Assembly: GCF_030733745.1 (NCBI RefSeq)
Contig: NZ_JASHIK010000008.1
Location: 1 to 64,000, forward strand
From: Stappia sp. MMSF_3263
GTDB lineage: Bacteria; Pseudomonadota; Alphaproteobacteria; Rhizobiales; Stappiaceae
DNA length: 64,000 nucleotides
Reading direction: 5' to 3'
The notes below the pieces were generated by a model, which saw only the letters and a program-made list of their open reading frames with translations, was not told the DNA's origin and searched no databases. The position numbers and the translations under genes were made by a program. Below, one piece after another: positions 21,223 to 24,629 of the stretch (position 1 is its first letter; each line of letters starts with the position of its first letter).

Positions 21223-23484
21223 TCAAGCATAACTAGCGTGAACGTTCGCAGCGACAGCCTGCGGAACCTCCTCGTAGTGGTCGAACACCATCGAGTACTG
21301 TGCGCGACCCTGCGACATCGAGCGCAGGCCGTTGACATAACCGAACATGTTGGCCAGCGGCACCATGGCGTTCACCGCAGTGACGACACCGCGATTCTCG
21401 GTGCCGGTGATCTGGCCACGACGGGAGTTCAGATCGCCGATGACGTCGCCCATGTAGTCTTCCGGCGTCACCACCTCGACCTTCATGATCGGCTCGAGCA
21501 GCTTCGGAGCGGCCTTCTGAATGGCCTCACGGAAACCGGCACGGGCCGCGATCTCGAACGCCAGCACCGAGGAGTCGACGTCGTGGTAAGCACCGTCGAT
21601 GAGGGTGGCCTTGATGTCGACCATCGGGAAGCCTGCCAGCGGGCCCGAGGACATGACGCTCTCGATACCCTTGGTGACGCCCGGGATGTACTCCTTCGGG
21701 ACCGAACCACCCACGATCGTGCTCTGGAACGAGTAGCCGGCACCGGTCTCGTTCGGCTCGATCACCAGCTTGATGCGGGCGAACTGGCCCGTACCGCCGG
21801 TCTGCTTCTTGTGAGTGTAGTCGACTTCCGCCTGACGGGTGATCGTCTCGCGGTAGGCAACCTGCGGCGCACCAATGTTCGCCTCGACCTTGAACTCGCG
21901 CTTCATGCGGTCGACGATGATGTCGAGATGAAGCTCGCCCATGCCGGCGATGATGGTCTGGCCGCTTTCCTCGTCGGTCTTGACGCGGAAGGACGGATCC
22001 TCGGCAGCCAGACGGTTGAGCGCGAGGCCCATCTTCTCCTGGTCGCCCTTGGTCTTCGGCTCGACGGCGATCTCGATGACCGGATCCGGGAACTCCATGC
22101 GCTCCAGGATGACCGGCTTCAGCGGGTCGCACAGCGTATCGCCAGTGGTGGTGTCCTTCAGGCCGGCGATGGCAACGATGTCGCCAGCGTAAGCCACTTC
22201 GATGTCCTCACGCGAATTCGCGTGCATCTGCATCATGCGGCCGACGCGCTCCTTCTTCTCCTTCACCGTGTTCTGGAGAGACACGCCCTTGTTCAGGACG
22301 CCGGAGTAGATGCGGCAGAAGGTCAGCGAACCGACGAACGGATCGTTGGCGATCTTGAAGGCCAGCATGGAGAGCGGCTCTTCGTCGCCCGACTTGCGGA
22401 CCGTCTCGGCCTCGGTCTTGGGATCGATGCCCTTGATCGCCGGAACCTCGATCGGGCTCGGCAGGTAATCGACGACGCCGTCGAGCAGGGGCTGCACGCC
22501 CTTGTTCTTGAACGCCGAACCGCAGAACACCGGAACGAACTCGCTGTTGATGGTGCCCTTGCGGATGAGCGCCTTCAGGCCCTCGTCCGTCGGCTCCACG
22601 CCCTCGAGATAGGCTTCCATCGCGGCCTCTTCGGCCTCGACGGCGGTCTCGATCATCAGATCGCGGTATTCCTGGGCCTTGTCGGCCAGGTCAGCCGGGA
22701 TGTCGACCTCGTCCCAGGCAGCGCCGAGCGACTCGTCGCGCCAGATCAGGGCCTTCATCTTGATCAGGTCGACGACGCCGGCGAACTCGCTCTCAGCACC
22801 CACCGGGAGCTGCATGACGAGCGGCTTCGCACCGAGGCGCGTCTTGATCATCTCGACGCAGCGGTAGAAGTCCGCACCGAGCTTGTCCATCTTGTTGACG
22901 AAGATCATGCGCGGGACATGATACTTGTCGGCCTGACGCCAGACGGTCTCGGTCTGCGGCTCGACACCGGCATTGGCATCGAGCAGGGCGACCGCACCGT
23001 CGAGCACGCGCAGGGAGCGCTCCACCTCGATGGTGAAGTCGACGTGACCCGGCGTGTCGATGATGTTCAGGCGCTTGTTGTTCCAGAACGCAGTGGTGGC
23101 AGCGGACGTGATCGTGATGCCACGCTCCTGCTCCTGCTCCATCCAGTCCATCGTGGCGGCGCCGTCATGGACTTCGCCGATCTTGTGGCTCTTGCCGGTG
23201 TAGAAGAGAATCCGCTCGGTCGTCGTGGTCTTGCCCGCATCGATGTGGGCGATAATTCCGAAATTGCGGTAATTTTCGATTGGCATTGCGTTAGTACGCA
23301 ATCGGGGCGCACTCTTTGTTTTTTCTTGCGCTTTACCCTCTTCTAAAAATCGTCGAGCCAACGCCACCCTCTCGGGAGCAAGCGTCTCGAGACCGATTTG
23401 CAACCTATGCCGATGCTCGTCTTCGATGGAAAGCGAACTTAGAAAATCATGCAAATACTCAGAATCTTCTTGAAATTTGGTCAC
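21223..23484 (-). CDS. fusA: Elongation factor G with a 66-residue foreign N-terminal extension
   Basis: A 753-codon frame. From residue 67 (ATG at 23286) it is a full-length EF-G: G1 [19 protein letters not shown]3 DTPGH, G4 NKMD, and all downstream domains to the C-terminus. The first 66 residues (GTG at 23484; [20 protein letters not shown], then [18 protein letters not shown]) match nothing in EF-G and are predicted helical. The GTG overlaps the TGA of the nucleotidyltransferase-like gene (GTGA), so the fused frame is coupled to it. The internal ATG has no ribosome binding site. The usual EF-G start (MAREYKIEDYRNF-like) is replaced by MPIENYRNF. No str-operon genes flank it, so it is probably a second or relocated copy. 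Confidence 0.9.
23285..23302. repeat. Perfect inverted repeat at the EF-G fusion junction
   Basis: ATTGCGT and ACGCAAT, separated by TAGT, form an 18-bp perfect inverted repeat that overlaps the internal ATG of the EF-G part. In RNA it would form a 7-bp stem over that ATG. It could be an old fusA leader element or a recombination scar. Confidence 0.7.
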
Positions 23485-24629
23485 GCAGCCACCTCTCTGC
23501 CGGAGACGTGGCGCACAAGTTCGTCGATCACCCCTTGGGAAAAAATGGAAATTGATACATCATCTAATCTTGAGGAGAGTCTCGAAATATGGAAATTTAA
23601 CTCTCTATTCGCGTCAAATAACTCCTCCCTCCAAAGATGTGATTTCTCAAATTTACTGGAAGAGATTCTTTCAACAATGATTTTAATTTCCTCAATCTCA
23701 CGCATCTTAAAATCACAAGAATTAATAATAAAGTTAGTGATTTTATCTGACAAATCACCGAGAAAACACACCCTCGAAAGAGACAGGCAGCGCTTCAATG
23801 CCTTCACATAATTCTGATCTTCAAAATAGATTCTAGCCTGCCCTAGGAGCCAGTGTATGTAGCGCCCGATTTCGTATGGATCGGCCAGCTCATTCGGAAC
23901 CGCCAACGTCGGCACCATATGGACTTCTTGCGCCGCGAATGTCTTGTCCATCGCAGCGCTTCGCCAATCATCGTCGCAAAATATCATGACGTTGGACACA
24001 TCACACGGACGAAATCCCTTGACTTTTCCAAAAAAATCTATTTTTCCAAAGGAGGTATTTGAAATCGACGGATCTATACCGTTTAGTGCACATTCAATAT
24101 CAGAAAAATCATCTTCCGCCCCCCAAATCCGCCCGTCAAAATACAACTTCTCAAAGTACAGATCATCTTCATTTCGAAATTTATTGGTTAAAGAATTAAA
24201 AATATCTGCATGATCAGAAGAAACATACTCACAAAAATCAAAATCACCATTTGTGACGCTGGACTTTATTACTGCAGCACTACCAGATAAGCAAACAATT
24301 GAATCGCGGAGCGTTCTGACTTTGCGCGAAAGAAGCCAAATAGCATCCAGCTCTCGCTCACTCGGAAATGCGGGAACAATATGATAGGGAGCTCGAACAA
24401 CTGCAGGAGGATCGACGCGAATTAGATAGCCCGGATGCTTCTCGTCAGCAATCCAGCCCTGATATGCCCCCTCATGCAAAATAGAAAAGCCCGAAAGGAA
24501 GCTTTCTAAGCTTTTTCTGAGCGCCAAATACATAGAATCACCCCTGAAATCTCCAGAGAAATTCCTATTGCTCTCATAAAAATCCAAGCATGCGGAGAAA
24601 ATACTAGACGGACTTCTATCTATTGCCAT
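23481..24629 (-). CDS. AT-rich nucleotidyltransferase-fold protein, function unknown
   Basis: A 382-residue protein I do not recognise by name. Residues near 110-130 read [19 protein letters not shown], which fits the nucleotidyltransferase pattern hG[GS]...DhDh, and a further Asp in [10 protein letters not shown] could complete the acid triad. The C-terminal third is helical ([20 protein letters not shown]). Base use is clearly more AT-rich than the flanks, a sign of recent transfer. Its TGA overlaps the GTG of the fused EF-G frame. IS3 debris lies upstream. It might be a NMP- or aminoglycoside-type transferase or a toxin; none of this is shown. The ribosome binding site (GAGAAGT) is weak. 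Confidence 0.75.

Follow-up and report, generated by a model that had tools for sequence, protein, structure and literature searches.

The two-gene EACC1 system is among the closest described counterparts of the locus reported here, and its 3′ gene has as many as 50 different C-terminal domains, EF-Tu domains among them, which its authors read as effectors (PMC7159879). The locus reported here is a gene pair at positions 21223–24629 of a 64,000-nucleotide stretch of DNA (the window; contig 49:1–64000) in Stappia sp. MMSF_3263, a draft assembly of 5.02 Mb in 50 contigs (G000), in which a predicted nucleotidyltransferase (NTase) gene is followed by a gene encoding EF-G with an N-terminal extension. 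The pair resembles EACC1, as presented in the section describing that system, in having two adjacent genes, the 3′ gene combining a constant N-terminal part with variable C-terminal domains (PMC7159879). It differs in that the 5′ gene of EACC1 encodes a membrane protein with a conserved transmembrane helix, whereas an NTase is modeled for the 5′ gene of the present pair; in that the constant part of EACC1 is a caspase or cyclase, whereas here it is a short segment, if any; and in that the section describing EACC1 mentions neither EF-G nor GroES (PMC7159879).

The MenAT and AbiE toxin–antitoxin systems, in the accounts consulted, are also adjacent pairs containing an NTase able to act as a toxin. 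Phage sensing by bNACHT25 is described as depending on the host chaperone DnaJ (PMC12169576), and the underlying idea is similar, in that a housekeeping protein or process of the host is monitored, but in the text consulted the host protein of bNACHT25 is separate and native (PMC12169576), whereas the module described here would have a copy of it built in. No description of an NTase paired with a fused EF-G or GroES was found in the portions of the open-licence literature searched. We tentatively favor the explanation that the locus encodes a translation-coupled NTase effector and a partner whose C-terminal domain can be exchanged and is in some cases an essential host protein that serves as a bait or aiming part.

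Organization and expression signals of the gene pair

The NTase/EF-G architecture is well supported, and the description of 21223–24629 in an earlier note, made from the letters of the DNA alone, is correct. Both genes are on the minus strand. The 5′ member (24629..23481) is an open reading frame (ORF) encoding the 382-residue NTase, and its TGA overlaps the GTG start of the partner gene (23484..21223) by four nucleotides (GTGA). The partner is a 753-codon frame that is open from a 66-residue N-terminal extension (23287..23484) through the whole of EF-G. The EF-G part is complete, with a TIGR00484 score of 1134.9 bits (cut-off 659.4) over frame residues 66–749 and Pfam matches to the GTPase and to domains II–V. 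The extension matches no Pfam family at E≤1, including any N-terminal caspase or cyclase domain of the EACC1 type, and scans with PADLOC and NCBIfam are likewise without a family match.

Base composition changes sharply at the junction, with GC contents in 500-nucleotide windows of 0.42–0.45 in the NTase gene versus 0.63–0.64 in EF-G; at third codon positions, the NTase and the extension have GC contents (GC3) of 0.418 and 0.439, respectively, compared with 0.879 for EF-G codons 13–640. The predicted duplex energy with the anti-Shine–Dalgarno sequence is −7.8 kcal/mol at the partner GTG, indicating a good site, versus +0.3 kcal/mol at the internal EF-G ATG, which has no ribosome site, and expression is therefore likely to proceed through the fused frame. 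The overlap, the uninterrupted frame, the change in composition and the unserved internal start had all been read from the sequence in the earlier note and hold up here.

A second, mosaic fusA gene

A full-length fusA at contig 34:127–2181 lies beside rpsG, rpoC and rpoB, and because this str-operon gene is on another contig the window fusA is a second copy; the concern that the window might hold the only fusA therefore falls away. In a survey of 87 genomes of the family, a near-full-length fusA is present in 83 among the matches listed (those without one being G049, G058, G077 and G078), and only G000 has two. The window copy has neither the str-operon context nor the native start, and its alignment reveals no native leader or N-terminus, no rpsG-like sequence upstream and no tuf-like sequence downstream. 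An origin from the genome's own fusA is rejected, as the two are only 91% identical in DNA sequence.

Alignment of the window fusA with 13 others (the genome's own str copy, ten from genus mates and two from other genera of the family) divides it into three segments, all on the minus strand. The first is a divergent, AT-rich 5′ end (codons 1–12; 23251..23286), the second is a body close to the fusA of sister species (codons 13–640; 21367..23250), and the third is a divergent 3′ end with the stop position unchanged (codons 641–688; 21223..21366), the two ends being putative remnants of a foreign EF-G gene. Nucleotides common to none of the 13 other genes number 5/30 in codons 3–12, 2/1884 in codons 13–640 and 13/144 in codons 641–688 (Fisher's test of ends versus body, 1e-8 for the 5′ end and 6e-14 for the 3′ end, with neighboring sites being non-independent). 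Compared with the five closest species alone, the private sites number 5, 14 and 18, respectively. Both divergent ends still align as fusA, they are AT-richer (GC3 of 0.385 in codons 676–688, compared with 0.418 in the NTase and 0.879 in the body), and they contain eight of the 17 residues at which the protein differs from that of G075.

The core of the window fusA is 98.0% identical to that of G075, 97.4% to G081, 97.0% to G074, 96.2% to G079 and 94.8% to G084, versus 91.4% to the genome's own copy. The str-operon fusA is itself 90.9–91.5% identical to this sister-species group, as expected for vertical divergence, with corresponding values of 92.0–92.1% for rpoC and 91.4–93.5% for rpoB (over 168 nucleotides only for G075 rpoB). 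The body is thus probably derived from a sister species.

As judged from these comparisons, the simplest history is that a foreign, AT-richer EF-G fusion arrived with the cassette and that homologous recombination then overwrote most of it while the host was a sister species. It is unlikely that an entire fusA was inserted into the partner gene, as codons 5–12 and 679–687 are divergent yet gapless relative to fusA and the stop is the same. The earlier proposal that the insertion captured a fusA copy also fits poorly, and because both ends are unlike the genus and the middle is genus-like, an older fusion that was later overwritten is favored over simple capture. The gene of a mobile cassette was apparently rewritten by the host's essential gene while staying fused to its extension.

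EF-G genes are also encoded by 274 records of the plasmid collection (E≤1e-50), many of those listed being chromosome-sized, although records of ~100–135 kb from Clostridioides difficile and of ~400 kb from Sphingopyxis and Sphingomonas are included.

Identification of the NTase

The window NTase matches no family at E≤1 in Pfam, PADLOC or NCBIfam, with the curated MenAT and AbiE models unmatched, and no PHROGs family at E≤0.1; since family models detect nothing, the 382-residue protein is assigned from a motif and a predicted fold. The Pol-beta superfamily signature is an hG[GS]...Dx[DE] motif with a third acid, and the protein contains a motif of this type (G116-S117, G128-D129-x-D131-x-C-E-Y and K196-x-D198), with G116, S117, D129 and D131 kept in all six aligned NTases and D198 in five of them. 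An NTase fold is also predicted in an AlphaFold2 (AF2) model, which matches the Megaviridae ORFan NTase (PDB 4ams/4amq) by structure only. That protein differs in being from a eukaryotic virus and is 13% identical, and it is not known to be partnered by EF-G or GroES. A profile of three sequences does not list 4ams at E≤1 when compared with the PDB, and the only PDB matches by sequence are OxyA and a cytochrome P450 (E values of 0.19 and 0.71), which are taken as chance. The earlier reading of the window gene as an acquired, AT-rich gene with an NTase fold holds up, and its active-site residues are intact.

Related NTases and their partners

The NTase family is rare, with six loci found (the window, G553, G063, G398, G452 and L040). 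The partner located at the same place contains EF-G in one, GroES in one and a phosphoribosyltransferase in two, and is a short ORF alone in the other two; C-terminal domains of the 3′ gene are therefore exchangeable across the six loci, as they are in EACC1. The earlier idea of a two-gene module carrying EF-G gains support as to the module from the relatives with GroES and phosphoribosyltransferase partners, while a role for EF-G as target, decoy or resistance form is hypothetical.

In G553, an alphaproteobacterial metagenome-assembled genome, the partner (L038 832–1407; L039 8082–8657) is a 191-residue protein with an N-terminal segment followed by a Cpn10/GroES domain (1.4e-19). The fused GroES is strongly diverged, being 44.6% identical to a normal-looking groES elsewhere in the genome, but is open and keeps conserved stretches; no groEL was seen around it among ORFs of at least 150 residues. 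A single-sequence model of this partner is too poor to use (predicted local distance difference test, pLDDT, of 41.3), with the N-terminal piece appearing as three helices at pLDDT ~45–70. The G063 and G398 partners are phosphoribosyltransferase proteins of 349 and 381 residues, the latter just below the Pfam cut-off (24.7 versus 26.3 bits). The G452 partner is a 63-residue ORF followed by repeat-like sequence (L021 1–1411), and the L040 partner is a 77-residue ORF with a GTGA overlap and its own stop. The G452 NTase has an N at the third acid position, and this cassette is possibly decaying.

The partner N-termini were compared in 15 pairwise shuffle tests, uncorrected, and with a profile of three sequences. 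Those of G553, G452 and L040 are clearly alike (p 0.0005, 0/2000 and 0.005) and have a common WP-x-D-x-EQ stretch, the G063 N-terminus is a borderline case (p 0.0445 when compared with G553; 153/3000 shuffles with the profile), and the similarity of G398 to the others is not significant. A shared adaptor domain across all partners is not borne out, only three of the N-termini being clearly alike.

Weak matches that are not relied on include those of the G063 partner to PADLOC PRTase_III-A and ShosT (E 0.0003–0.0004), of the G452 NTase to PDC-M38B (0.056) and of the G553 NTase to a PHROG (0.046). When the G063 and G398 proteins serve as tblastn queries, no phosphoribosyltransferase remnant is detected downstream of EF-G; the best window match of the G063 partner (E 0.002) is at 14397–14585, on another ORF. 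Searches by tblastn with the NTases returned nothing useful from plasmids (window, G553, G063, G398 and L040) or from phages (window, G553 and G063), and there was no gain from scans of viral contigs or from a genome contig search with a single NTase sequence.

Proposed function and alternative explanations

Under the favored explanation, the two-gene, translation-coupled module would be terminal cargo of a putative integrative element of ~21 kb, and the NTase, with its active-site residues intact, is most likely the effector of the pair. Its partner would join a short N-terminal piece to an essential host protein copied in full, which in this case is EF-G. Such a fusion would be old, having first carried a different, AT-richer EF-G in which recombination with a sister-species host fusA swapped codons 13–640 with the frame kept. 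The partner may restrain or position the NTase, and the EF-G part would report on, or dock to, the ribosome, as GroES would with GroEL in the G553 relative; if a phage, for example, disturbed this process of the host, the NTase activity would then be released or aimed. Toxicity of the NTase, its neutralization by the partner, sensing by the fused host protein, and the bait function of that protein are parts of this scheme that we infer.

Plant nucleotide-binding leucine-rich repeat (NLR) receptors with integrated decoys provide a comparison for such a built-in bait, and the presence of GroES at the same place in a related unit hints that copies of essential host proteins are used as bait or aiming parts. 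If this is true, bacteria build host targets into a defense protein, with EF-G and GroES as bait or aiming parts, and EF-G and GroES could be tested directly as targets of phages or rivals. A more specific form, in which this is a new immune or conflict module whose NTase effector has a built-in, exchangeable bait drawn from essential host components (EF-G, GroES, possibly others) and kept host-like by gene conversion, is rather unlikely.

Several observations weigh against the favored explanation. The AF2 model of the NTase is of middling confidence (pLDDT 71.2), and Foldseek with this model returns nothing at E≤0.001. Within the fusA body, 14/1884 sites are unlike all five of the closest sister species, and the exact donor therefore lies outside the sampled set. 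The ends of the putative element are based on a single 14-nucleotide repeat, and none of the other cassettes is seen to lie in a defense island, the neighbors of the G553 pair looking mostly metabolic by eye, with no family search made on them. The remaining points also speak for accidental capture, the strongest of the alternatives although a doubtful one, in which a short ORF is the usual partner and EF-G (and, in G553, GroES) was joined to it by illegitimate recombination as a passenger with no role in the module. Two of the six partners (G452 and L040) are short ORFs with their own stop and no fused domain, as would suit the earlier concern that the extension is an independent small gene. 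The 66 window residues have no significant similarity to the five other N-termini (p 0.58–0.93) or to the three-sequence profile (1446/3000 shuffles as good), so the extension is equivalent to them by position, overlap and length only. Recurrence of the EF-G fusion with the NTase was not borne out, as it is found only here, and since the EF-G and GroES fusions are represented by one locus each, confidence in the favored explanation is limited.

Capture by accident is, however, opposed by the divergent fusA sequence at both ends, which indicates that the fusion is probably older than the body it now carries and that its frame remained open during recombination. Two separate fusions to universal host proteins within a six-member family would also be surprising by chance, although this is a judgement and not a computed value, and the GroES fusion, despite its strong divergence, has an uninterrupted frame with conserved stretches kept. 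A variable-partner conflict module is more likely than chance capture.

It is improbable that the fused EF-G is a protective copy, an insensitive stand-in that would maintain translation while the normal EF-G is under attack by the NTase, a phage factor or an antibiotic. Such a role would suit a full-length protein that scores as normal EF-G, and the changed ends, with their share of the amino-acid differences from G075, could matter. The body nonetheless gives no sign of a special form, its two private nucleotides both being at third codon positions; the score against the NCBIfam tetracycline ribosomal protection protein model is far under the cut-off (384.3 versus 775 bits); and GroES and phosphoribosyltransferase partners do not suit a single target. 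Least probable by far is an assembly chimera or contamination that put a foreign cassette onto a sister-species fusA, since, although this is a single draft assembly of 50 contigs and the EF-G body matches other species, two false crossovers within fusA would be required, the native fusA is an unlikely cause at only 91% identity, the assembly is 99.87% complete and 0.79% contaminated, and the genome has only two high-identity full-length EF-G matches and hence no separate sister-like fusA.

Putative integrative element and surrounding genes

A 14-nucleotide direct repeat at 21009..21022 (plus strand) is an exact copy of 42006..42019 (plus strand), corresponding to the 3′ end of a tRNA-Met gene (42006–42082, minus strand), and the two copies are putative element boundaries; by chance, 0.03 copies with no more than one mismatch would be expected in the window. 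The tRNA-Met 3′ end is overlapped by an ORF for a large serine recombinase (40424..42049, plus strand), which together with the repeats suggests a ~21-kb integrative element (21009–42019). The arrangement suggests that the NTase/EF-G unit is the outermost, terminal cargo of this putative element.

Directly upstream of the NTase gene are IS3-like transposase remnants (rve and HTH_21; 24734..25885, minus strand), followed by a group of restriction-modification genes (26334..29963, minus strand) encoding an Mrr-type nuclease (26334–27731) and two C5-cytosine methylases (27728–29059 and 28785–29963). The two adjoining methylase ORFs (27728–29963) have repeats in common, perhaps reflecting a duplication. 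Further to the right are genes for a relaxase with DUF3363 (32348..34492, plus strand), an AAA ATPase whose best PADLOC matches are NsnB, AriA, PtuA, Old and GajA (34826..36472, minus strand), and a PDC-S45-like protein (36875–37696). With its restriction-modification genes, relaxase, NsnB/AriA/OLD-like ATPase and PDC-S45-like protein, the putative element resembles a small defense island.

Comparison of 14500–34400 with seven genus mates yields, besides fusA, only matches of up to ~570 nucleotides with 65–96% identity. The left flank (14500–21000) contains genes for a tricorn-like protease (16213–19461) and an SH3-domain protein (19513–20472), and because matches to the left of the repeat are no longer than 344 nucleotides in the seven genus mates, this flank seems to be strain-specific and is perhaps a second such region.
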